Source: Roseococcus sp.
GTDB taxonomy: Bacteria; Pseudomonadota; Alphaproteobacteria; Acetobacterales; Acetobacteraceae
Length of the DNA stretch: 35,832 nucleotides
Direction of reading: 5' to 3'
Assembly: GCF_019747315.1 (NCBI RefSeq)
Contig: NZ_JAIEQY010000397.1
Coordinates: 1 to 35,832 of the forward strand
Part shown: piece by piece, positions 14,056 through 20,456 of the stretch
Layout: the number at the start of each line of letters is the position of its first letter
Numbering within the stretch: position 1 is the first letter of the stretch
Notes under the pieces: generated by a model
What the model saw: the letters and a program-made list of their open reading frames with translations, nothing else
Told to the model about the DNA's origin: nothing
Databases searched by the model: none
Made by a program: the position numbers and the translations under genes

Positions 14056-14190
14056 AAAAAGAAAAGGCCTCCGGCGGCTGGGGCCGAGAGGCCCCAGACC
14101 CCAAAACTTCAGGGCGGCACCAGCACATCATTGATTTGAATGATTAAAAATGGGGTCTGGGGCCCCGGCCCCAGCCGCCGGAGGCTCTTT
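14056..14190. repeat. Head-to-head hairpin repeat doublet, copy 2
   Basis: Two oppositely oriented copies of the repeat. The left copy (about 14056-14103, minus orientation) has stem CTGGGGCC (14078-14085), loop GAGA, GGCCCCAG (14090-14097), and an A-rich left end. The right copy (14152-14190) has stem CTGGGGCC (14157-14164), two-base loop, GGCCCCAG (14167-14174), then CCGCCGGAGGCTCTTT. Between them lies a 48-base AT-rich spacer, the longest spacer of the three doublets, which holds a smaller inverted repeat ATCATT (14127-14132) / AATGAT (14139-14144). It sits between the end of rlmE and the start of guaB, both on minus: the only copy not between convergent genes. The guaB promoter may lie between here and 13941. 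Confidence 0.8.
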
Positions 14191-16811: not shown

Positions 16812-17942
16812 ATGCGCATGAAAGCCGCAGTGCTGCACGCCCAGGGCCTGCCGCGCCCCTATGCCGAGACGCAGCCCATGCGCATCGAGGAGGTGGAACT
16901 CGCACCCCCCGGCCCGGGCGAGGTGCTGATCGAGATTGCCGCCGCCGGGCTTTGCCATTCCGACCTCTCGACCATCGAGAACCAGCGCCCGCGGCCGCTC
17001 CCCATTATCATCGGCCATGAGGGCGCCGGCATCGTCCGCGCGCTGGGCGAAGGCGTCACGGGGTTGAAGGAGGGCGACCATGTGGTGGCGCTTTTCGTCA
17101 CGAGCTGCGGGGAGTGCCGGCATTGCGCGCGCGGGCGGCCGAATATCTGCGGCGTCTCCTTCGATGCGCGGGCCAAGGGCACGCTGATGTCCGGCGCGCG
17201 GCGGCTCAGCCGGCTGGATGGCGCGGTGGTGAACCACAATTCCGGCCTCTCGCTCTTCGCGCAATTCGCGGTGGTGATGCGCGACAGCCTGGTGAAGGTC
17301 GACCGCGACATCCCCCTGGAGGATGCGGCGCTGTTCGGCTGCGCGGTGATGACCGGCGCGGGCGCCATCCTCAACACCGCCCGCCTGCGCCCGGGCGAGG
17401 AGGTGGCGGTGGTGGGGCTGGGCGGCGTGGGGATGAGCGCGCTGATGGCGGCCGTTGCCACCGGCGCCACGCGAATCGTGGCGGTGGATACCAGCCAGGC
17501 GAAGCTCGACCTGGCGCGCGAATGGGGCGCGACGGACACCTTTCTGGCCGGCAATGCCGATTGCGCGGCGGCGGTGCGCGAGGCGACGGCGGGCGGGCTG
17601 GATACGGTGGTGGAGACGGCGGGCAGCATTCCCGCGCTGGAGCTGGCCTATGCCATCACCGCGCGCGGCGGCAGCACGATCAGCGCGGGCCTGCCCAATG
17701 TGAACGCCAAATTCGCCTATTCCCATGCGGCGCTGGTGAGCGAGGAGCGCAGCATCCGCGGCAGCTACATGGGAAGCTGTGTGCCCAGGCGGGACATCCC
17801 CTTGCTGCTGGGATTGTATCGCAGCGGCAAGCTGCCGGTAGACCGCCTGAAGAGCGGCTATGTGAGCCTGGAAGAGATCAATACGGGCTTCGACCGCCTC
17901 TCCGACGGCACCGTGCTCCGGCAAATTCTCCGCCCCAATTGA
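16812..17942 (+). CDS. Zinc-dependent alcohol dehydrogenase
   Basis: A 376-residue medium-chain NAD(P)-dependent alcohol dehydrogenase. Catalytic zinc ligands are Cys48 (GLCHSD), His69-Glu70 (GHEGAG) and Cys177 (FGCAVMTG). The structural zinc lobe has four cysteines at 99, 102, 105 and 113 (CGECRHCARGRPNIC). The nucleotide fold shows GLGGVG at 202-207 and an acidic residue (VAVDTS) indicating NAD. The length and second zinc site resemble the class III / benzyl alcohol branch. Start is ATG at 16812 with AGGA just upstream. It diverges from the lactonase-like/Bug operon; joint degradation of a lactone or hydroxy compound is a reasonable inference. Confidence 0.94.
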   Translation: MRMKAAVLHAQGLPRPYAETQPMRIEEVELAPPGPGEVLIEIAAAGLCHSDLSTIENQRPRPLPIIIGHEGAGIVRALGEGVTGLKEGDHVVALFVTSCGECRHCARGRPNICGVSFDARAKGTLMSGARRLSRLDGAVVNHNSGLSLFAQFAVVMRDSLVKVDRDIPLEDAALFGCAVMTGAGAILNTARLRPGEEVAVVGLGGVGMSALMAAVATGATRIVAVDTSQAKLDLAREWGATDTFLAGNADCAAAVREATAGGLDTVVETAGSIPALELAYAITARGGSTISAGLPNVNAKFAYSHAALVSEERSIRGSYMGSCVPRRDIPLLLGLYRSGKLPVDRLKSGYVSLEEINTGFDRLSDGTVLRQILRPN

Positions 17943-17943
17943 C

Positions 17944-17985
17944 GGGGTCTGGGGCCCCGGCCCCAGCCGCCGGAGGCCTTTTTTC
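17944..17985 (+). repeat. Hairpin repeat element, copy 3 (likely terminator)
   Basis: Starts two bases after the dehydrogenase stop. It has GGGGT, the stem CTGGGGCC / GGCCCCAG with a two-base loop, the constant CCGCCGGAGGCC and TTTTTTC. Its TTTTTTCTTA tail provides the TAA stop of the convergent GAF gene, so the element fills the whole gap between the two coding regions. Confidence 0.8.
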
Positions 17986-18471
17986 TTATTGTGCGTCGTC
18001 GAGAATCCACTGCACCGGCGCCACGGCGAGCGCCGCAAAGACCCGCAGCAGCGGCAGCTGCGCCTCGGAATAATGCCCCGCGGCGTGCAGCAGGTTCAGC
18101 GCGCCCAGCGTGTGCCCGTTCCAGCGGATGGGCATGTTCACGCAGGATTCGCAGCCGAGCGAGAGGATCAGCTCATGGTCCGGGAAGGCCTGGATGATCT
18201 CGGCGCGGTCCCGGCAGAAGCGCGGCTCGCCCGCCTGGACCAGGCGGCGGTGATAGCCGCTATCGCGCTGCACCGGCTTGTAGCCGCCCACCGGGTATTC
18301 CACGGGCCGGCTGGAATGGAAGCGCCGATTCATCCCGCGCGGTTCGTCCAGCACCAGCACGGTGAAGAGGCGATGGCCGATCATGCTGGCCAGCGCCGCG
18401 TCGAGGGCAGCGAGGCCGACCTGCGGCTGCCCCGGGGAGGCGAGCGCGCGGGCGAGATCCTCCATGGTCAT
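17986..18471 (-). CDS. GAF domain protein
   Basis: A 161-residue protein, essentially one GAF domain. It contains the family features FTVLVLDEP early, then GCESCVNMPIRWNGHTLGALNLLHA, the usual strand-loop-strand that closes the ligand pocket, and a helical end. Start chosen is ATG at 18471 (a second ATG six bases in is possible); the longer frame to 18732 would read through a GC-rich non-coding region with no family similarity. GAF domains bind small molecules, and a lone domain may be a sensor or a free methionine sulfoxide reductase-like enzyme; two of the cysteines (GCESC) would need comparison. It may be transcribed from the promoter near 18.8 kb, past a terminator. Confidence 0.85.
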   Translation of the reverse strand: MTMEDLARALASPGQPQVGLAALDAALASMIGHRLFTVLVLDEPRGMNRRFHSSRPVEYPVGGYKPVQRDSGYHRRLVQAGEPRFCRDRAEIIQAFPDHELILSLGCESCVNMPIRWNGHTLGALNLLHAAGHYSEAQLPLLRVFAALAVAPVQWILDDAQ

Positions 18472-18596
18472 GGCGTGATGCCGAAGGCGGGCATGCGTGT
18501 CTCCCCGATCCGCTCGAATTGGCGGTTTCAGGTGCGAGGATGGGCGTCTTGTCGGGAAAAGGAAACGGGCGGTGGGTGTTGCGGACCGGCGCCATT

Positions 18597-18638
18597 CGGG
18601 AAAAAGAAACGGGCCGGTCGGGTTTCCCCAACCGGCCC
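18597..18638 (-). terminator. Strong intrinsic terminator on the minus strand
   Basis: Perfect 8-base arms, on plus GGGCCGGT (18611-18618) and ACCGGCCC (18631-18638), with an inner GGG/CCC pairing in the loop. On the minus strand the hairpin is followed at once by GTTTCTTTTTCCCG, a good U tract. A similar tail, GTTTCCTTTTCCCG, recurs 44 bases further on without a strong stem, suggesting a duplication. No annotated gene ends nearby: the dioxygenase stop is about 350 bases upstream. Confidence 0.75.
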
Positions 18639-18767
18639 GGGGCCCGCAAGGGCCAGTCTGGCGGGGGCTTGCCGGGAAATAGCCACCGCCGGATGCCGTC
18701 AGCAGAGACCCTCGCGGGCAGCATGACGACAAGAGGAAGGTTGCGCCCCGCTGGCCTGCCGGGGCAT
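18600..18767 (-). ncRNA. Candidate small RNA or attenuated leader
   Basis: The interval between the predicted start point about 7 bases after the -10 box and the end of the terminator U tract. An RNA of about 165 bases would be made with no open frame that looks coding. Two readings are possible: an independent small RNA, or the leader of the GAF gene (start 18471) with an internal terminator as an attenuator. Only promoter and terminator are seen; conservation cannot be judged here. Confidence 0.4.
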
Positions 18768-18773
18768 GGGAGA

Positions 18774-18802
18774 ATCATGAACTCGAAGCAATCGCGAGTC
18801 AA
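18774..18802 (-). promoter_or_regulatory. Sigma-70-like promoter, minus strand
   Basis: On the minus strand TTGACT (18802-18797) and CATGAT (18779-18774) are separated by exactly 17 bases. They match the consensus boxes at five and four of six positions. An inverted repeat ACTCG (18781-18785) / CGAGT (18795-18799) lies in the spacer and could be an operator. It is one of the clearest promoter-like sequences I found in the window. Confidence 0.55.
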
Positions 18803-18984
18803 GAAGTCGGACATGTGGACACTCGATTTGTCCATCAAGACTGACAGTTCTCGCATGCCATCCGCGCAATGATCCGGCGCTATCCCAGGGCCAGCCTCAG
18901 ACGGAAATCGGGGGGCGGGGCAACCGGCCGGGGCGCCTCCGCCGCCGGGCGGGGATGCGCTTCCGGGCGGAGCGAAAAATAATT

Positions 18985-19698
18985 TTAGCGAGCGGCGGCG
19001 CCGAGGCGCTTCCAGGTCAGCACCAGGACATCCCGACTCGAGGGCAGGGCCGGATCGGCCGGCTCCACCGGCGTTACCCCATGCATGACCCGGTGGTCGT
19101 CGAGGATGGCGAGGTCCAGCATTCCCTCTAGCGTGAAGCGGGCCATTTCGGCCCCCGCATCATCCGTCACCAGTGTCTCGCCGCCCTGGAGATTGGTGCG
19201 GGCCAGCATGGCGATGAGCACGACATCCACGCCGTCATGATGCACGCCCTCGGGCGTCGGCAGGCCGGGGGTGCCGGGGGCGGCCTCGACGCGGAACTGG
19301 TGCATCTCGACGAACCAGGGCGTTCCGGGGCGCAGCCCATCGGCCACGCCGTGGCCCAGTTCCAGCAGCCCGGTGCAGACCGGGTTCAGCACCACGGCAT
19401 CCTCGACGGGTGCGAACCAGCGATCCACGCCGCCATTCAGCTTGTTATGAACCGAGGCCTGGAAATGCGGCCGGTGCAGCCCCCGCGCATGGCCGGGCCG
19501 CCCAGGCAGCGCCAGGAAATTGGCCAGGCGCCGGCGGCGGTAGCGCCCACCATCGGCCATGAAGCCATCCGTCTCCAGCCGCTGCCAGCTCTCCGCGAAG
19601 TCGCGCAGCGCCGCCTCGGGCGCCGCCAGCAGCGCCGCCGTCTCGGCGGGGCGCAGCCGGGCGAAGCCCTGGGCCTGAACCTGGGCCAGCGTGGTCAT
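18985..19698 (-). CDS. 2-oxoglutarate/Fe(II) dioxygenase (2OG-Fe_Oxy_2 type)
   Basis: A 237-residue oxygenase resembling the family that includes the L-isoleucine hydroxylase IDO and biofilm protein BsmA. The iron triad is His153 and Asp155 (GVHHDG) and His206 (HRVMHGVTPV); Arg222 (SSRDVLVLTWKR) is the likely 2-oxoglutarate anchor. EMHQFRVEA at about 131-139 and TNLQGGETLVTD at 168-179 are further family segments. Members hydroxylate free amino acids, so an amino acid substrate is plausible but not shown. The ATG at 19698 overlaps the stop of the lutA-like gene (ATGA), so the two are translated together. The gene ends with TAA followed by a T-rich stretch. Confidence 0.88.
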   Translation of the reverse strand: MTTLAQVQAQGFARLRPAETAALLAAPEAALRDFAESWQRLETDGFMADGGRYRRRRLANFLALPGRPGHARGLHRPHFQASVHNKLNGGVDRWFAPVEDAVVLNPVCTGLLELGHGVADGLRPGTPWFVEMHQFRVEAAPGTPGLPTPEGVHHDGVDVVLIAMLARTNLQGGETLVTDDAGAEMARFTLEGMLDLAILDDHRVMHGVTPVEPADPALPSSRDVLVLTWKRLGAAAR

Positions 19699-20456
19699 GA
19701 CAGGTCGCCGATCGGCGGGGCCTCCGTGATGCCGGCCAGCACCTCGGCCACATGGCGCACGCGGATCGCGCTGCCCTCGCGCTTCAGCCGTCCGGCCATG
19801 TTCAGCAGGCAGCCGAGGTCACCCGCCAGCAGCGTATCCGCGCCGGTGGCCGCGATGTCGCGCGTCTTGTCGCTGACCATGCGGGTCGAGATCTCGGGGT
19901 ATTTCACGCAGAAGGTGCCGCCGAAGCCGCAGCAGATCTCGGGCTCGGCCATTTCCTTCAGCCCCAGGCCCTGCACCGTCTCCAGCAGCCGGCGCGGCTG
20001 CGCCTTGATGCCGAGCTCCCTCAGGCCCGAGCAGCTGTCGTGATAGGTGATGGTGCCGTCATAGCTGGCTTCGACGCGCGTCACCTTCAGCACATCGGTC
20101 AGGAAGGAGACGAGCTCATGCGTCTTGGCGGCCAGCGCCTCGGCCTGGGCGCGCGCCTCGGGGTCGGTCTCGGCGAAGAGGCTGGGGTAATGATGCGAGA
20201 TCATCCCCGCGCAGGAGCCGGAGGGAGCGATCACATAATCATAGGGCAGGAAGGCCGCGATCACCTGGCGTGCGATTTCCTGCGTGCTCGCGCGGTCGCC
20301 GGAATTGAAGGCGGGCTGGCCGCAGCAGGTCTGGCTGAGTGGGACCACCACCTCGCAGCCGGCATCCTCCAGCAGCTTGATCGCGGAGAAGCCGACGGCC
20401 GGGCGATACAGGTCCACCAGGCAGGTGACGAAAAGGGCGACGCGGGGTTTGGACAT
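19695..20456 (-). CDS. lutA: (Fe-S)-binding cysteine-rich protein, LutA/YkgE type
   Basis: A 253-residue protein with two CCG (cysteine-rich) domains: TCCGQPAFNSG with Cys44-Cys45 and ICCGFGGTFCVKYPE with Cys175-Cys176, plus the extra cysteines in PSGSCAG and HDSCSG. This is the pattern of LutA, a subunit of the LutABC L-lactate oxidation complex, and of the C-terminal half of glycolate oxidase GlcF. The usual partners lutB and lutC are not next to it: upstream is timA, and downstream a 2OG dioxygenase that overlaps it by four bases. It may work with partners elsewhere, or as an electron-transfer protein for another oxidoreductase. The symbol reflects the family, not a proven role. Confidence 0.85.
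   Translation of the reverse strand: MSKPRVALFVTCLVDLYRPAVGFSAIKLLEDAGCEVVVPLSQTCCGQPAFNSGDRASTQEIARQVIAAFLPYDYVIAPSGSCAGMISHHYPSLFAETDPEARAQAEALAAKTHELVSFLTDVLKVTRVEASYDGTITYHDSCSGLRELGIKAQPRRLLETVQGLGLKEMAEPEICCGFGGTFCVKYPEISTRMVSDKTRDIAATGADTLLAGDLGCLLNMAGRLKREGSAIRVRHVAEVLAGITEAPPIGDLS

Follow-up and report, generated by a model that had tools for sequence, protein, structure and literature searches.

A candidate trans-acting small RNA gene with a conserved hairpin loop in Roseococcus and its relatives of the Roseomonas clade

The DNA analysed here, referred to as the window, is a stretch of 35,832 nucleotides from Roseococcus sp., and the features of interest lie in a gap between two genes on its minus strand. 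Upstream of the gap is a 2OG-Fe dioxygenase gene (18985-19698, minus strand) and downstream on the same strand is a GAF gene (17986-18471, minus strand) that starts at 18471, these identities coming from a search of the six adjoining proteins. The GAF start codon is overlapped by the terminal ATGA of an 8-codon mini-ORF (18468-18494, minus strand), which is found in all seven GAF-bearing genus loci examined (the window and L002-L007), with its length kept but not its sequence, translational coupling or a leader peptide being possible roles for it.

The original prediction for this gap was of a promoter TTGACT-17-CATGAT and, further downstream, a strong stem with a T tail, giving either a free RNA of about 165 bases or a leader of the GAF gene with conditional termination. 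The letters of the promoter are where they were said to be, with TTGACT at 18802-18797 and CATGAT at 18779-18774 of the minus strand separated by a spacer of 17 nt, and this is the one promoter-like site found in 17500-20000, against 0.2 expected in shuffles. The stem and tail are equally present, as a 13-pair stem at 18639-18610 followed by TTTCTTTTT at 18609-18601 (minus strand). The whole terminator scan returned two candidates against 1.3 expected, which is not above chance, and it is the length of the stem and its conservation that are the evidence for the terminator rather than the scan total. A second TTTCTTTTT tract lies at 14056-14064 (minus strand), between mechanically called ORFs. 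The local base composition had also been described as less GC-rich than the flanks, and this holds for 18597-18802 (0.665 against 0.686 and 0.695 in the flanks and 0.696 in the whole window), although the dip lies mainly upstream of the RNA, as the GC content of 18768-18900 is 0.549. The features of the locus are collected in Table 1.

Table 1. Features of the RNA locus, with window positions and the observations on which each is based.
Feature	Position	Strand	Basis
Small RNA gene, about 155-170 nt	18600..18770	minus	Conservation and fold z-score of -3.09; 5' end probably within 18770-18755, 3' end at the T tract
5' stem UGUCGUC...GACGGCA with inner hairpin	18694..18731	minus	9 predicted pairs, 4 with two-sided changes
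Hairpin H1, 9-bp stem with a U-C mismatch at the sixth position in the window	18660..18690	minus	Covariation
H1 loop UAUUUCCCGGCAA, likely seed	18669..18681	minus	Near-invariant across loci
Linker AGACUGG	18653..18659	minus	ACUGG in the main type; ACGAGG in the Falsiroseomonas/Roseomonas subtype
Hairpin H2, GGCCC-UUGC-GGGCC	18641..18654	minus	Pairing in 96% of cells; a two-sided change at 1 of 5 pairs
Intrinsic terminator, 13-bp stem (11 GC) and TTTCTTTTT	18601..18639	minus	Pairing in 98.5% of cells; two-sided changes at 7 of 13 pairs
Promoter TTGACT-17-CATGAT of the original prediction	18774..18802	minus	Present, poorly conserved
Conserved block ATTGC-N6-TTNA-N9-CA	18767..18792	minus	35 aligned loci

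Comparison of the locus with those of relatives establishes, at the level of sequence, the gene, its strand and its structure, and the size, strand and terminator of the free RNA of about 165 bases are well supported by it. The predicted RNA of 168 nt folds better than its shuffles, one of 200 being as good. An alignment of the core from 15 sequences of the genus has 47 invariant columns out of 106, and in the helices counted in this set (H1, H2 and the terminator) 9 of 27 pairs have two-sided changes, amounting to 30 such cells against 7.6 in shuffles. For cells, pairs, percentage and covariation score alike, none of 500 shuffles reached the observed value. The signal in these 15 sequences comes mostly from the terminator, which holds 7 of the 9 two-sided pairs. 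The 5' stem is weaker than the other helices, with up to 3 of the 15 sequences broken at a pair.

H1 was also considered alone in a wider set of 49 rows, reduced to 42, 36 of them distinct, by dropping 7 in which the loop was shifted. In these 36 ungapped sequences 93.2% of cells are paired and two-sided changes affect 5 of the 9 pairs, which 1 of 500 shuffles equalled or exceeded, with 20 two-sided cells against 6.4 in shuffles (none of 500 as high). Versions of H1 that were slid along the alignment gave at most 7 two-sided cells, the +3 slide nevertheless pairing in 80% of cells because the letters of the stem repeat GGC. Further types of pair were not above shuffles, for which 242 of 500 were as high for the core helices and 95 of 500 for H1. 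RNAalifold offers an alternative pairing of the H1 blocks in which 98.5% of cells are paired, against 92.3% for the chosen fold, but it has zero two-sided changes outside the terminator, and it was set aside because the wider set does show two-sided changes in the 9-bp stem; it is possible as a second fold, less likely than the 9-bp H1. Whilst the stem varies, the loop letters TTCCCGGCA are invariant in the 36 distinct sequences, and this putative seed, conserved on a covarying stem, is predicted to be exposed.

Conservation is less simple in the region of the promoter. The original prediction had made its case depend on both terminator and promoter being conserved in close relatives, and this is so for the terminator and only in part for the promoter. 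Among 12 loci of the genus the letters ACT of TTGACT are each kept in 10 and the A of CATGAT in all 12, the other letters not being general, and in a wider alignment of 35 loci (one of 36, L064, could not be placed) the majority letters of TTGACT are found in 12-17 of 27-28 loci, the alignment being gappy there, with C as the majority at the first position. Only one letter of CATGAT, the A at 18778, is general, being kept in 34 of the 35. The promoter as first proposed survives in the genus as ACT and this A, its remaining letters are poorly conserved, and it has been replaced here by the overlapping block at 18792-18767, which, judged from conservation, is probably the real promoter. The letters of ATTGC (18792-18788) are kept in 33, 35, 31, 29 and 32 of the 35 loci, the TT of the block in 31 and 34, the A in 34 and the CA (18768-18767) in 34 and 35, with a spacing that is fixed across the aligned loci except L065. 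The block would be either a -35 and -10 pair, with a start near 18755, or a -10 with an upstream element, with a start near 18767. The inverted repeat ACTCG/CGAGT that had been pointed out in the promoter spacer is present in the window (18781-18799, minus strand), where it overlaps the conserved block, and it is found in only part of the genus, several members being without it and the relative L007 having AGTCG/CGACT, with both arms changed.

A strict form of the block, ATTGCN6TTAAGN6CNCA, occurs once each in 5 of 100 family genomes, and all five sites lie 50-67 bases upstream of a match to the RNA model R1 (the fifth, in G206, a weak one), with one hit for a reversed control pattern. The 100 genomes include 17 clear carriers, of which 4 have the strict block and 13 lack it, and the window's own genome has TTCAT in the place of TTAAG. 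The promoter block is specific to the sRNA gene where strict, yet variable. The idea of a heat-shock promoter was rejected, as the regions upstream of groES in the genus, which have CTTGACTC/CTAGAT-like boxes, are by eye unlike the block. These groES regions (L256-L268) carry GCACTC/GAGTGC repeats, apparently in two copies, which we take to be CIRCE-like. A dyad of the form TGTCAGAT..ATGACA is found about 40 bases before the promoter block (18829-18847, minus strand), imperfect in the window and clear in four genus loci (L004, L005, L006 and L008) at about equal distance; it is possibly an operator.

The spread of the RNA was followed at three depths. A DNA search of 60 genomes gave 17 with a match, and the 15 of these that match the RNA core all fall within the genus (the window's own genome and 14 others, of 21 searched), whilst two genomes of other genera (G023 and G027) were dropped, their matches of 31-34 nt being to sequence outside the RNA. 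Of the genus relatives, 12 are at least 97% complete, and two of these (G007 and G012) gave no DNA match. In the family, R1 has matches in 66 of 249 genomes at E <= 0.01, of which 45 are at E <= 1.1e-6 and count as carriers. The 21 others, with a best E of 1.8e-5 to 0.01, were left out of that count, and the remaining 183 of 249 have no match at E <= 0.01; the weak match in G206, outside the carrier count, nonetheless carries the strict promoter block. The best 30 of the R1 family loci all have the loop CCCGGCA[AG]. The pattern GGCYATTTCCCGGCARGCC was found in 70 contigs of a collection of named genomes, 39 of which match R1 at E < 0.001 (L104, which ends at the edge of its locus and has an E of 0.0036, was left out), and the titles of those 39 are all of Roseomonas-clade genera or Acetobacteraceae MAGs; the contigs without an R1 match belong for the most part to a scatter of taxa and appear to be chance hits. 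Roseococcus, Belnapia, Siccirubricoccus, Roseicella and Falsiroseomonas are among the named carriers, and in the NCBI taxonomy Roseococcus and Belnapia are placed in Roseomonadaceae, Acetobacterales. Over the whole class, under stricter filters that lose weak matches, R1 matches 17 of 289 genomes and R2 40 of 289, with the own genome included in both. None of the 12 R1 loci inspected, of 20 retrieved from other genomes, has the loop, and in the R2 loci retrieved there are CCCGGCA strings in a few, by eye none of them in such a hairpin.

Two readings of the locus would make the RNA something other than a gene in its own right. The locus might encode a small protein, by itself or from an RNA of dual function, or else a longer protein on one or other strand. 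Mechanical ORFs of 117-248 amino acids do span the gap, on both strands, which qualifies the claim that no gene lies between, and an ATG frame crosses the loop in the window and in two close relatives (L109 and L151). The ORFs do not hold up in the 14 other genus loci, where the translation of the plus-strand ORF is 83% alike for L002 and 63% for L003 with DNA that is 90% and 83% alike, and where the translations of the window ORFs break up or contain stops elsewhere, with no match in L011-L015. It is because the translations are less alike than the DNA, are broken and have stops in several of the 14 loci that the gap ORFs fit non-coding DNA. On the sense strand the comparison of 35 loci establishes the lack of a common frame, start codons being absent or in different frames, and the changes in H1 follow base pairing. 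A protein-coding reading was rejected on the missing common frame and the failure of the window ORFs in relatives, and appears very improbable. The RNA could instead be the 5' leader of the GAF-domain gene, with read-through set by conditional termination, for which it is favourable that RNA and gene share a strand, that the GAF start lies about 130 bases beyond the T tract in the window, and that a GAF gene follows the RNA in 7 of the 15 genus loci. The other 8 of the 15 keep the RNA without a GAF match (E 1e-8) in retrieved flanks of up to 1.5 kb, and among 30 retrieved family loci, a set that overlaps with the genus set, 29 are without one, the sole exception being the window's own locus. 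The dioxygenase gene is a commoner neighbour than the GAF gene, though not constant. The pattern of covariation in the terminator stem is that of a fixed terminator, and no fold that opens it appeared among the predicted folds; in the minimum free energy fold of the window's RNA the 5' CCCGCGAGGG pairs with the H2 region and the terminator is left intact. Because the GAF gene adjoins the RNA only in the closest relatives, an attenuator is disfavoured and a free RNA favoured, the leader option was rejected on linkage, the link to the GAF gene not being retained, and it would seem very unlikely. On these sequence comparisons the independence of the RNA from the GAF gene is established.

We regard it as quite probable, from what the sequences suggest, that a trans-acting regulatory sRNA of the Roseomonas clade, which works as an antisense through its loop, is encoded at 18770-18600 (minus strand) by a stand-alone gene. 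Transcription would be from the dedicated conserved promoter block and would end at the intrinsic terminator, and the stem of H1 would present the fixed loop UUUCCCGGCAA, which is rich in C and whose most likely partners in base pairing are G-rich stretches of mRNA, probably near ribosome-binding sites. Hfq probably assists this pairing, and the mRNAs so paired would be repressed or destabilised. A Rho-independent terminator with a U tract, a feature of the trans-encoded sRNA class, is present, and an hfq gene was found in 13 of 13 genus genomes searched, which is only permissive for Hfq binding. A trans-acting antisense sRNA, with the loop as its putative seed, is in keeping with the loop, the stem, the terminator and the presence of hfq.

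Pattern searches of 13 genomes for targets complementary to the loop gave no conserved target, one target pattern having 17-36 sites per genome among the matches listed. The 13-nt complement of the loop, with at most one mismatch, has 41 sites in the 13 genomes, 11 of which are the RNA gene itself. Mechanical ORF calls were used to inspect 19 of the 30 others, none proving to be a conserved start region. Most of the inspected sites are inside ORFs and a few touch the start of an ORF; two of the latter, L229 (by eye) and L244, belong to genomes without an RNA match, G012 and G007, at another two (L240 and L247) the ORF begins at a TTG within the site itself, and the surroundings of these sites differ by eye. 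The lack of a conserved target in these searches could also favour an RNA that acts mainly by binding a protein, be it as scaffold or sponge, and whose loop is the protein site and not a seed, as could the strong structure and a loop that is invariant over its whole core. The sponges of CsrA/Rsm use GGA loops, however, whereas a C-rich loop fits antisense seeds, and an Rfam scan of the window found no family at threshold; action mainly through a protein is considered unlikely. The RNA is kept by many relatives, in which it probably switches other genes through base pairing.

Whether the family extends beyond the clade depends on its resemblance to BjrC68, an sRNA of Bradyrhizobiaceae that is named as previously analysed in a passage of an earlier paper (PMC4842269). 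BjrC68 (RF02353) is the nearest Rfam family to the window, at 22.3 bits and an E of 0.0018 in a 551-base search, and L013 scores 20.1 bits, both below the gathering score of 39, with no match at E <= 1 in the other 14 of the 15 loci scanned. Both have a hairpin, with the loop AAAUACCCGGCAA in BjrC68, and then a terminator hairpin and UUUCUUUUU, and the alignment runs in register through the loop with eight identical letters, CCCGGCAA, at two loci (the window and L013); ACGAGG, which follows H1 in the Falsiroseomonas/Roseomonas subtype in place of ACTGG, also resembles the UCGAGG of BjrC68. Unlike the RNA of the window, the 82-position model of BjrC68 has no counterpart of H2 and the 5' stem. 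A search of RF02353 over the class gave 24 of 142 genomes, none over the cut-off, and the stretches retrieved are by eye mostly plain terminators that score as high as the window; a 20-nt BjrC68-like pattern with at most three mismatches was found in 76 of 289 genomes, with no hairpin and terminator at any inspected site, and no inspected R1 or R2 match outside the family has the loop in a hairpin. As similar scores occur on apparent plain terminators, kinship with BjrC68 is supported by the identity of the loop only. The RNA might belong, as one lineage, to a deeper sRNA family of the Alphaproteobacteria that also includes BjrC68, a possibility which would be compatible with a trans-acting sRNA and which we consider doubtful, and a fuller version, in which Roseomonas-clade and rhizobial (BjrC68) branches of an old family kept an 8-nt CCCGGCAA loop fixed as stems, flanks and promoter were rebuilt, is rather unlikely; were it true, one deeply conserved target or protein partner would be implied.

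Taken on its own clade, the RNA apparently represents a real and conserved sRNA family, new although of a known kind, and apparently undescribed, as no title on sRNAs of the Roseomonas clade was found among those listed in searches of the open-licence PMC literature. It would serve as a regulatory RNA throughout the clade, a large group of environmental bacteria, the invariant loop would be a ready seed for the identification of targets, and the alignment is probably sufficient for an Rfam entry. With terminator attenuators and riboswitch-type leaders it shares the order of promoter region, structured RNA and terminator before a gene on the same strand, but here, unlike in those systems, the downstream gene is not conserved and no terminator-opening fold was seen. 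A closer likeness may be to RusT of Caulobacter crescentus, which excerpts of the paper that reports it describe as a multi-stem, Hfq-bound sRNA of 118 nt whose pairing through a conserved stretch in the second stem-loop was tested there (PMC11005374). RusT, described from Caulobacter and, as far as those excerpts go, from another genomic setting, is likened to the window RNA by description and not by sequence, and it is possibly its functional analogue if the reading as a trans-acting sRNA is right.
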